A stretch of DNA of 48,801 bases from a candidate division BRC1 bacterium HGW-BRC1-1. GTDB lineage: Bacteria > Sumerlaeota > Sumerlaeia > Sumerlaeales > Sumerlaeaceae. Position 1 is the stretch's first letter. Each line of letters opens with the position of its first letter. Location: positions 1 through 48,801 of the forward strand of contig PHCB01000018.1 in the NCBI GenBank assembly GCA_002842095.1, in the 5' to 3' direction. Position numbers and translations under genes: made by a program. The notes under the pieces were generated by a model. The model saw only the letters and a program-made list of their open reading frames with translations. It did not search any database and had not been told where the DNA came from. Shown here one piece after another: positions 43,348 to 47,210 of the stretch.

Positions 43348-43523
43348 GGGTGGTCGTGCCTCCGGAAGAGAATGTTTGTTTGGATGGAACGTGTTGCTTT
43401 CAATAACATCCTGCCCTGCGTGATGCTGCATTCAAGCATTTCCTCGCGGCATGCTGCAGGCACGAAAAAACCATCAGCTTCGTCTTGACCAGAGCGCATC
43501 GTGTGGTCATGAAATCAGGCCTT

Positions 43524-44405
43524 ATGGATAACCTGCGTCCCGACCAGATTGAGCAAATTGTTCGCGCGGTAGTGGAACGCGTAAGTGCCTCCATGGCGCA
43601 GGGGGCTTCCGCTCCCGCAGCGCTGGCGCAACCCACCCCGCCCAGCGTGAAAGACGAAAACACCGCCACGGGGAAACGTCTGGTGGAAACCGGCGCGGCC
43701 CGCATGGGCATCACCGACGCCCAGGCGCTGCATTGCGATAGTCTGGCGCCGTACATCGACCACACGTTGCTGAAACCCAACGCCACCGAGGACGACATCG
43801 CCAAGCTTTGCAGCGAAGCGCGCCAATATAATTTTGCGTCCGTGTGCATCAACACCTCCTACGTGGAGCAGTGCGCGCGTTTGCTGGGGGGAAGCCCGGT
43901 GAAAGTTTGCACGGTGGTGGGTTTCCCTCTGGGGGCCATGAGCAGCGCCGCCAAGGCGTTTGAAACACGCGACGCCGTGAGCCACGGTGCCGAGGAAATC
44001 GATATGGTGATTAACGTCGGCAAGCTACAGTCGGGCAACTATGCCTACGTGCTCGACGACATTCGTTCGGTGGTGGAAGCTGCCGCCGGGCGCACCACGA
44101 AAGTAATCATCGAGACCGGACTTCTGGAAGACAACCAGAAGGTGGCAGCCTGCGTGTTAGCCAAGGCCGCCGGTGCAGATTTCGTGAAGACGTCCACAGG
44201 TTTCAGCGGCGGCGGCGCGACCGAGGAAGACATCGCCCTGATGCGAGCCGTGGTTGGCGGCGAGATGGGTGTGAAAGCGTCGGGCGGGATCCGCGACTGC
44301 GCGGGCGCACGCAACATGATCGCGCAGGGAGCGACGCGCATCGGTGCCAGCGCCAGCGTGAACATCCTGAAGGGCGACGAAGCACGCGGCAAAGCCGGGT
44401 ACTGA
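43524..44405 (+). CDS. deoC: Deoxyribose-phosphate aldolase with N-terminal encapsulation-peptide-like tail
   Basis: Cleaves 2-deoxyribose-5-phosphate to glyceraldehyde-3-phosphate and acetaldehyde. The TIM-barrel part begins near residue 72 with [20 protein letters not shown] and continues with [63 protein letters not shown] (the Lys is the Schiff-base residue) and [13 protein letters not shown]. In front lies an extension of about 70 residues: an amphipathic helix [20 protein letters not shown], then an Ala/Pro-rich linker. This matches the pattern of microcompartment encapsulation peptides. The start could instead be the ATG at 43509, but 43524 places the helix at the very N-terminus. No shell protein is present nearby. 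It is divergent from the SGNH gene. Confidence 0.93.
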
Positions 44406-44419
44406 CAGCAGCTTTTCCC

Positions 44420-47083
44420 TCACGGTTCTCGGCGCAGATAATCCAAAACGACCTGTTTCAACCGAAACCCACCATCGCCCTGGCGGTAAAATGTAACGGC
44501 GACATCCTGTGTTTCCGCTGTAATTACGAATCTCCCGGAAAGTTCTCCCTGAATTGCCTGATCCAGCGTCATCGGAATGTTTTCAATTTTCGGACCAGAC
44601 ATGAAAAGAGGATTGGTCCAACTTTCTCTAATTTCCAATGTCAGCGTGGTCTCATCATCAGGCAACAATGCCCCCCCGGTCCTGTCGCCATCCAATTGAA
44701 GCACCACCCTGTAGACCCCCCGGGGTAAACGAGAAAACTTCCCGGTCAGCAATGAGCGGTTGCCATCAGCGGCAGAAAATCGCAACGCCGCCCCTTCCGC
44801 CACTCTGGGGCGATGATCCGTTATAAAGGGTTTTGCCGAAGGCGCCAGTATAAGCGTCGCCTGCGCGGGGTCCGGATTCTCCCCACCGCTTGCAACAGCC
44901 CCATTGTCTTGAATCCGTTTAAGCGCCTTCTTCAAACGACGATTATCATAACGTTCAAGCCAACCGAACCGTGCGGCCTCCCGCGAAAAATTATGTGTAG
45001 CCGTGACGCCGAAATTAAGAGATTGGGTGAGAGGAGCGAACCATGCCAGCAGCGCAATAACCAAACATGCCGCGGCTGCAACGGCGTTCGTGGTCCTGCG
45101 CCGACTCGTCCACCATGCTGTGCCCGCCAACGTGGCAAGCACAAGCCCGGCATGGACGAGCGGGAAACCGTTTACGGAGCCCGTATTGCGATAGAGCAGA
45201 TGGGGGAACAATTCGCGGGGTGAGAATGCGCTGAAAACCAAATCCATAATTGGCCGCGCGTATTGTCCGCCGTTATGGTAGGCGCTCACCGGATCGCGCA
45301 CAAACTGCAACGCTGCAGCAAGGGGCAGAACCAACAGCAGCGCCGTTGCGAAATGCCGTCCGCGCCGGCTTGCGAATGCCGCCGCCAGCAGCGGAGCACA
45401 CCCAACCAACAGTGGCGAAAAGTAGCGAACGGCTGTGACACCACCATCGTTCCATGTGGAGGAAAACGAGGTAATCAAAACGAGCGGGGCCGCCAATGTC
45501 AGCGAGACAATCACCAATCGACGAGCGGATGTTTTGGTTACAGCGCGTCGGCGCAACGCCCGCCACCCGGCAGGAAGCAGAAGAAGCCACGGCGCGAAAA
45601 GGAGCATACCGTTCTCGCCGTCGACCCACATGCCCAGCACCCCGGTGAGATCGCTCTGAGGATTGTTTTGTTTCCAGATCACATCGCCAAAGATTGGCAG
45701 TTGCACAGCGATAAACACGACCGCCCCGAGGGTAATCGCGGTACACGCGCGCAGAAGCTGTCGCCGATCAAGCCCGCCCCACGCCAACACAAACCCTGCC
45801 AGCGCCAGAGAGAGAAGCGCATAGCGCGGATGAAACCAGGGCAGCACCAGGCAAACCATGACGATCGCAGCGAGACTCTTATCGGACAAGGTGCAACTCG
45901 CTGATTCCCGCTCATCCCCGCGCAACGCAGGCGCCAGGGCGCATAGTGCCACCAATGTTAAAAGCGCCGCGAACGGTTCCGGATAAACCTGATAGCTCGT
46001 CCCCAGCCACGGAAATGAAATGGCAAACACGGCCGCAGTGGCCAACGCAGCGCCCGGGGCACGAGTGATGCGGAACGAAAAACAACCGACCAAAAGTATC
46101 GTCGCCCCGAACACCATGAGCATAAACCCATGCAAAGCATCGGGCATGTTCCCCGTAATGCGCCCCACAGCGTAAGCAGGCAAAATAGCCAGCGACGGCC
46201 CCAGAAAATGCAGCGGCGCGGAAGATCCATCGGAGCGGTTGAAGCGATGCTGCCGAATGGCACGATCAATATTGAGCGCCTTGTTGAAACGGTCTGCATC
46301 ATGCTCGGAGGGATGAAGCGATCCGTTACGCACAAGGCTGTCAGTAGTGTGCAAATAGCTTGGTTCATCGCCGGTGAAAGGGTGCGTGCTCGTACTCATG
46401 ATGACGCAGGCCGCAAACGCGAACACGACCAACAACATCCCCGCAGCACCACGCGAGAACCGCGGCAGACGTGTGATAATCCGATCAACCTGCAACCCCT
46501 GCCACAAAGCCGCCCCCACCGCAATGCGACCCGTCACCAGCACCAACATAGACGCCCAAGCTGCGGTGGAAGGATGCGGTAGAACCTGGAGAAGCAGCGC
46601 GGGTATTATTCCCAGCACAACAAAGATCAAAGCAGGGGGCAGGAAGAATGGGAGGATTGAGACAGGAGGGAGGACATTCCTGTCCCCCTGATCCATCGCA
46701 AGGCAAGGACTTGGGGGACAGGAATGTCCCCCCTCCTGTAAAACACACATCACTCGAGTACCCCCGCCAAACCGACGCGACAAAAAAGCCAACCCCGCAA
46801 GAGCGATGGTAACAAATGCACCACCAACCAATATCTCTCCCGCCCAACCAAGCCGCCCCGGAAGCATAACCCACCGCCAAGAAGCGCCGGCATCAACACT
46901 CATCACATGAGCCGAAAGCACCCCCCGTTCGGCGGCAAGCCAGACGCCGAAAGCGCACGCCAGAAAAGTCCACTTCAAAAAGGTGAACACCCGCCGAAAC
47001 TCCGGGCTTAGGTGTGTAAGGGCTTTTCGATTACGGAGCACAAGTTGTCTGGTCATAGATGAATGATTCGAGGGATTGACCAT
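44420..47083 (-). CDS. GT-C-type membrane glycosyltransferase (PMT/ArnT-like) with in-frame repeat
   Basis: A polytopic membrane protein of about 887 residues. Numerous hydrophobic helices alternate with loops; the first large periplasmic loop carries TGDEPSYLHTTDSLVRNG, the DE motif of GT-C transferases. YPEPFAALLTL and QNNPQSDLTGVLGMW lie in later loops. The C-terminal 220 residues are soluble and beta-rich (LRFSAADGNRSLLTGKF, VVLQLDGDRTG, RFVITAETQDVAV). It should move sugars from a lipid carrier to an acceptor outside the membrane. Codons for about residues 115-145 come from a 28-bp inverted repeat (46661-46740) that appears in frame. The start is uncertain: ATG 47083 or 47056, with frame open to 47173. 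It is convergent with deoC and its 5' end faces the divergent response-regulator gene. Confidence 0.85.
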   Translation of the reverse strand: MVNPSNHSSMTRQLVLRNRKALTHLSPEFRRVFTFLKWTFLACAFGVWLAAERGVLSAHVMSVDAGASWRWVMLPGRLGWAGEILVGGAFVTIALAGLAFLSRRFGGGTRVMCVLQEGGHSCPPSPCLAMDQGDRNVLPPVSILPFFLPPALIFVVLGIIPALLLQVLPHPSTAAWASMLVLVTGRIAVGAALWQGLQVDRIITRLPRFSRGAAGMLLVVFAFAACVIMSTSTHPFTGDEPSYLHTTDSLVRNGSLHPSEHDADRFNKALNIDRAIRQHRFNRSDGSSAPLHFLGPSLAILPAYAVGRITGNMPDALHGFMLMVFGATILLVGCFSFRITRAPGAALATAAVFAISFPWLGTSYQVYPEPFAALLTLVALCALAPALRGDERESASCTLSDKSLAAIVMVCLVLPWFHPRYALLSLALAGFVLAWGGLDRRQLLRACTAITLGAVVFIAVQLPIFGDVIWKQNNPQSDLTGVLGMWVDGENGMLLFAPWLLLLPAGWRALRRRAVTKTSARRLVIVSLTLAAPLVLITSFSSTWNDGGVTAVRYFSPLLVGCAPLLAAAFASRRGRHFATALLLVLPLAAALQFVRDPVSAYHNGGQYARPIMDLVFSAFSPRELFPHLLYRNTGSVNGFPLVHAGLVLATLAGTAWWTSRRRTTNAVAAAACLVIALLAWFAPLTQSLNFGVTATHNFSREAARFGWLERYDNRRLKKALKRIQDNGAVASGGENPDPAQATLILAPSAKPFITDHRPRVAEGAALRFSAADGNRSLLTGKFSRLPRGVYRVVLQLDGDRTGGALLPDDETTLTLEIRESWTNPLFMSGPKIENIPMTLDQAIQGELSGRFVITAETQDVAVTFYRQGDGGFRLKQVVLDYLRREP
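46661..46740. repeat. 28-bp inverted repeat inside the GT-C gene
   Basis: The left arm at 46661-46688 (GACAGGAGGGAGGACATTCC and CTGTCCCCC continuing) and the right arm at 46713-46740 (GGGGGACAGGAATGTCCCCC then CTCCTGTA) pair with two mismatches around a 24-base spacer. It is translated as part of the glycosyltransferase (LQEGGHSCPPS and CLAMDQGDRN). Similar palindromes occur between genes in this window, so it is probably a dispersed element that landed in frame. Confidence 0.85.
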
Positions 47084-47210
47084 CCCTTTTCCAGATTTTG
47101 TCAACAAGCGTAAATTCCCAGCATCGCGCTTGCTCTGTGCTTGACGGATGAGTACTCTCATGCAAACTTGCACTTCTTAAACTATTCTCCGTCGAGGAAA
47201 GCACCCCCCT

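Follow-up and report, generated by a model that had tools for sequence, protein, structure and literature searches.

A predicted N-terminal encapsulation peptide on the deoxyribose-phosphate aldolase of a Sumerlaeota bacterium with dispersed microcompartment genes

Introduction

Sugar phosphate utilization (SPU) loci, named by Axen 2014 (PMC4207490) and reported in 26 phyla by Sutter 2021 (PMC8217296), encode metabolosomes that combine a DeoC-type aldolase (pfam01791), an acylating aldehyde dehydrogenase (AldDH), and RpiB (pfam02502) with a shell of BMC-H and BMC-P proteins. Their enzymes and shell genes are placed in a main locus, in which a PduL-type phosphotransacylase is common, but not universal. 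The microcompartment loci of Atribacteria and others, which a sequence-only reading of the DNA studied here had cited as encoding a deoxyribose-phosphate aldolase, have indeed been published as SPU (PMC4207490, PMC8217296). FRAG microcompartments occur in candidate phyla, have their shell genes, including a BMC-P triplet, dispersed over up to six places, and comprise types without an assigned signature enzyme (Sutter 2021, PMC8217296). The loci of BRC1 have been described as satellite-like and devoid of a core, some of them containing PduL or AldDH, and it was suspected that their core was missing or that constitutive genes were dispersed (Axen 2014, PMC4207490). In HO genomes, which possess a main HO locus, extensions resembling encapsulation peptides (EP) have been noted on unlinked pfam01791 enzymes (Sutter 2021, PMC8217296). 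Moreover, operons of A-domain (family 4) encapsulins with DeoC have been described in archaea (PMC8346489). A literature search found no paper linking Sumerlaea to microcompartments.

This paper describes the extended DeoC encoded in a stretch of 48,801 nucleotides, termed the window, which is contig 24 of the genome of candidate division BRC1 bacterium HGW-BRC1-1 (3.77 Mb, 34 contigs, 94.8% complete), BRC1 being the older name of Sumerlaeota. The closest named record is a Candidatus Sumerlaeaceae metagenome-assembled genome (MAG; relative G005; 65% identity), and other named matches are Candidatus Sumerlaeia. The window genome shares with SPU metabolosomes a DeoC-type aldolase, an acylating AldDH, and a shell of BMC-H and BMC-P, and its RpiB gene lies near a BMC-H gene with intervening genes, but the system is spread over seven unlinked places with no PduL found, and it is not filed as SPU because the one-locus criterion fails. 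As in FRAG microcompartments, the shell genes are dispersed (over five places), include a BMC-P triplet, and belong to a candidate phylum, whereas the tailed DeoC is a candidate for the signature enzyme that FRAG lacks. In how it would function the system resembles SPU, and in its genomic layout FRAG. It resembles the satellite-like BRC1 loci in phylum and in its isolated shell genes, and differs from them in that a relative assembled as one contig shows true dispersal and in that DeoC and AldDH were found as unlinked, tailed candidate cargo. Finally, in HO-type genomes too a DeoC away from the main shell locus bears an EP-like N-terminal extension, but the window genome has no main locus of any kind.

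Results

The deoC gene (43524..44405, + strand, ATG start) encodes a class I 2-deoxyribose-5-phosphate aldolase (DERA) of 293 amino acids with an N-terminal extension; it matches PF01791 with 65.1 bits, has DERAs as its top solved homologues (E 1e-79), and is the sole DeoC match of the genome. In-frame alternatives upstream of its start are an ATG at 43509 and a TTG at 43485, and the ATG at 43524 is considered the natural start because homologue alignments begin at that residue. The extension comprises residues 1-72 (43524-43739), the barrel starting from approximately residue 73, which pairs with residue 4 of the closest solved DERA, 6d33. Since the 6d33 alignment starts at the barrel, ordinary DERAs are without the extension, in agreement with the claim of the sequence-only reading that this DeoC carries an N-terminal tail ahead of its barrel.

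The AlphaFold2 model, based on a 22-row alignment, contains a helix at residues 6-25 (43539..43598, + strand; pLDDT 82-90 for this block), which is the predicted encapsulation-peptide helix and matches a weight matrix of AldDH tails (see below). It is followed by a flexible, Ala/Pro/Thr-rich linker at residues 26-56 (43599..43691, + strand), the model being disordered, with a pLDDT below 50, at residues 29-61; the succession of helix and linker that had been read from the sequence was thereby recovered. A short pre-barrel segment (GAARMG..., residues 57-72, 43692..43739, + strand) is conserved in the alignment of 22 homologues, with G57 and A58 being invariant and R60 nearly so. The aldolase barrel (43740..44402, + strand) is modeled with a pLDDT mostly above 90, and its conserved DERA residues K222 (44187-44189), K251, and D160, all invariant across the 22 homologues, were assigned, by homology, the roles of Schiff-base lysine, second lysine, and aspartate, respectively. 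Among same-family relatives the linker is 6-32% identical versus 75-77% for the barrel, and the linker varies in length as well as in sequence among homologues. In many tailed DeoCs of other lineages (L066, L083, L098, L084, L103), a CxxCGxC motif that might bind metal or Fe-S is conserved where the linker meets the barrel; the window DeoC is without this motif. The gene adjoining deoC (44420-47173, - strand) encodes a 917-residue membrane protein with no Pfam match.

The weight matrix with which the tail was scored was built from 22 AldDH tails, all of them from other genomes (own genome excluded), and its training segments were picked by eye. With this matrix the DeoC tail obtained 13.0 bits, a score equaled by 0 of 2000 shuffles and reached by 2 of 47,821 18-mers, one of which is the DeoC tail itself, while the highest score among 128 further N-termini of this genome was 12.3 bits, which is nearly as high. 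The same matrix recognized the tails of EutC (30.6 bits) and EutE (17.4 bits) of E. coli K-12, whereas the five other E. coli eut N-termini scored all fell below zero. These two tails share the helix pattern ..I..IV..V... with the DeoC tail, but belong to different enzymes that are encoded within a microcompartment operon. We regard the resemblance of the DeoC tail to AldDH tails as real; the matrix alone would be no proof. With a hydrophobic moment of 0.49 (shuffle p 0.04), the helix is marginal by this measure on its own, the matrix scores being the stronger evidence against chance, and a phmmer search of the PDB with the 40-residue DeoC tail gave nothing at E 10. A tail profile run against the own genome detected AldDH and DeoC only, matches that carry no independent weight because both proteins were in the training set, and with a third match at E 0.16 it revealed no further cargo. 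Moreover, DeoC and AldDH tails from one genome resembled each other no more closely than those from different genomes (permutation p 0.22), giving no signal of co-evolution.

The sequence-only reading had placed the shell elsewhere in the genome and had proposed a search for acylating aldehyde dehydrogenases, and both were found. The shell set consists of two BMC-H genes (PF00936; C2:53434 and C3:300163) and three BMC-P genes (PF03319; C3:329758, C2:193887, and C11:72165), every one over the curated cut-offs and each a separate singleton amid unrelated housekeeping genes; two-domain BMC-T was found neither in the own genome nor in G005. The AldDH (C31:113986-115437) is unlinked as well and is also tailed, its N-terminus MDDRTISQIVDEVTRRLQSGAPTPAPTAGASS consisting of a helix-type stretch and an Ala/Pro/Thr linker; its top solved homologues are the aldehyde dehydrogenases 5jfl/5jfm (5jfl E 1e-113), followed by acetylating enzymes. 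The five shell genes, DeoC, and AldDH make up the seven unlinked places. PduL-type phosphotransacylase (PF06130) is absent from the own genome, G004, and G005, which suggests that a different phosphotransacylase acts there or that acetyl-CoA is used directly; PF06130 was found in the same-family genomes G001-G003 and G007. The scattered singleton shell genes, the unlinked AldDH, and the missing PduL go beyond what the sequence-only reading contained. RpiB lies 3.9 kb from a BMC-H gene in the own genome, with other genes between, and approximately 1-6 kb from a BMC-H gene in the own genome, G001, G002, G003, and G004.

Downstream of a BMC-H gene, in the window genome as well as in 6/6 shell-bearing same-family relatives, lies a gene for a flavoprotein-like protein with an N-terminal helix and linker (G000:C2:52448-53287, L007:8449-9288, - strand; weak PF02441 match). 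Its AlphaFold model has a helix at residues 2-24, and its fold matches UbiX, DmrB, and PPC decarboxylase. The AldDH-tail matrix did not recognize its tail (-1.1 bits) and the hydrophobic moment was not significant, and for that reason the protein counts by helix, linker, and location only; a tailed FMN-type flavoprotein beside BMC-H is likely a third cargo. In G039, a domain similar to this flavoprotein, with PF02441 just under the cut-off, precedes DeoC in one frame, and in G056 the N-terminal region is just as long, with no Pfam match in it.

In other genomes, shell genes adjoin tailed DeoCs in Elusimicrobia, Chloroflexi, Aminicenantes, and others, an arrangement also known from published SPU loci, and BMC-H, BMC-P, and often AldDH are located within a few kb of DeoC in these three lineages, a Hodarchaeota MAG, and others. 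A tailed DeoC is in or near BMC loci in G039, G009, G018, and G056. G039, which belongs to the same phylum as the window genome, carries on a single contig DeoC, BMC-P, RpiB, BMC-T, a protein labeled PduS-like by reading its sequence, a tailed AldDH, and BMC-H. By contrast with the satellite-like loci described earlier, true scatter can be followed in the relative G004, a single contig of 3.29 Mb. There DeoC maps to 0.67 Mb and AldDH to 1.14 Mb, whole BMC-P genes to 0.91, 1.16, and 2.85 Mb, and BMC domains to 0.09, 0.59, and 0.87 Mb; since this genome likewise spreads its genes over 2.8 Mb, the scatter in the window genome is considered real.

Shell proteins with three tandem complete BMC domains per frame, of approximately 297-330 residues between stops and 89-118 bits for each domain, are encoded at L171:1462-2400 (- strand), L170:420-1409 (- strand), L173:1456-2343 (- strand), and L184:5546-6436 (+ strand), and G013:C1:892015-892851 also has three PF00936 matches in a single frame. 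The L184 gene, from G009, lies 1.5 kb downstream of a tailed DeoC. To our knowledge, known shell proteins have one or two BMC domains, and a literature search found no mention of three-domain BMC shell proteins; such chains would form dimeric pseudohexamers.

The co-occurrence of tail and shell was surveyed in 61 genomes, 27 of which have shell genes. With a DeoC tail called at p<=0.01, comparison of the 43 DeoC-bearing genomes revealed a tailed DeoC in 21 of 25 shell genomes versus 1 of 18 shell-less genomes (Fisher 2.3e-7, relatedness ignored). Within families, too, tail and shell are lost together: in f7, G013 and G034 have tail and shell and G026 and G032 have neither, and in f13 both are present in G031, G033, and G035 and both are lacking in G021 and G029. 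G016 and G022 each have two DeoC copies, one tailed and one tailless. All six shell-bearing same-family genomes besides the window genome have kept the DeoC tail. Close AldDH homologues occur in shell-bearing genomes (partial in G036), and none that strong in shell-less genomes. The exceptions are G014, which has a shell and a tailed AldDH with a tailless DeoC, and G042, from another phylum, with a tail-like DeoC at p<=0.01 and no shell detected; extensions in lineages without microcompartments, which the sequence-only reading had named as evidence against packaging, are therefore restricted to this 1 of 18, next to a borderline tail (p 0.011) in G037 (Sumerlaeia, 84% complete; L109, C274:2750-3571). 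A search of G037 detected neither shell genes nor a BMC-type AldDH, and its DeoC tail may be a relic, or contigs may be missing. The DeoC tails of G030, G036, and G056 are likewise borderline.

Discussion

The data make it highly probable that the extension of DeoC is an N-terminal encapsulation peptide, and that the genome encodes an SPU-like metabolosome with DeoC and AldDH as cargo and with its genes dispersed without a locus. The tail has the characteristics of encapsulation peptides, i.e., a terminal amphipathic helix of 15-20 residues and a flexible linker, as well as likeness to other BMC cargo tails and shell proteins in the same genome. The DeoC and AldDH helices would attach to the BMC-H/BMC-P shell on its inner side, and such docking would load both enzymes together from unlinked genes, after which DeoC would produce acetaldehyde inside the shell, to be captured as acetyl-CoA. 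The tail, the linker, the intact aldolase, the shell genes, and the tailed AldDH have been established by sequence, as has the co-occurrence of tail, shell, and AldDH across relatives, and it is from these that we infer the encapsulation of DeoC itself and hence the packaging of deoxyribose-phosphate breakdown that had been proposed.

An alternative that we consider improbable, yet the best surviving one, is that the tail does target a microcompartment of which the main substrate differs, DeoC being a secondary or relic cargo. Most FRAG-type microcompartments are without a known signature enzyme; G014, G017, and G024 combine a shell with a tailed AldDH while DeoC is tailless in G014 and was not detected in G017 and G024; and the clustered shell locus of G015 contains a class II aldolase gene. 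However, the retention of the DeoC tail in 6/6 other shell-bearing family members argues against this, as does the finding that no other candidate signature enzyme lies beside the five shell genes of the own genome. It is considerably less probable that the extension is an oligomerization or partner-binding helix with no relation to a shell: encapsulation peptides have short, degenerate sequences, the moment taken by itself is marginal, and tail-like helices occur in G037 and G042, in which no shell was detected, but the pattern recurs on an unrelated enzyme family and on E. coli EutC and EutE, and the presence of the tail tracks the shell. Addressing of DeoC to an encapsulin nanocompartment, for which one could invoke that DeoC has been described in association with family 4B encapsulins (PMC8346489), is very unlikely, given that the own genome has microcompartment shell genes and that the tailed DeoCs of other phyla adjoin such genes. 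Finally, an annotation artefact, with the true start near the barrel and a non-coding upstream frame, would fit the far better conservation of the barrel than of helix and linker, but hardly merits belief, as the upstream frame is open, the N-terminal helix pattern is kept in homologues of several phyla, and scoring trained on AldDH detects the extension.

The encapsulation-peptide reading can be extended, more tentatively, to a deoxyribose-phosphate metabolosome of Sumerlaeota that might be assembled wholly in trans, with tail-defined cargo, an FMN flavoprotein recycling cofactors within the shell, and, in some members, a shell built with a three-domain BMC protein; if true, a function could then be assigned to dispersed (FRAG-like) microcompartments. 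The function of microcompartments is usually inferred from gene neighborhood, an approach that fails for dispersed systems, and here it is the tails, not the neighbors, that identify the cargo. Assignment of cargo by its tail is a general route for other dispersed microcompartments, and the tailed DeoC could be the signature enzyme of the orphan satellite-like loci that the 2014 survey noted in BRC1 (Sumerlaeota). Genes lying far apart in the genome thus seem to supply the parts of a known organelle type, and a testable substrate is provided for the whole phylum: deoxyribose-5-phosphate, from DNA debris.
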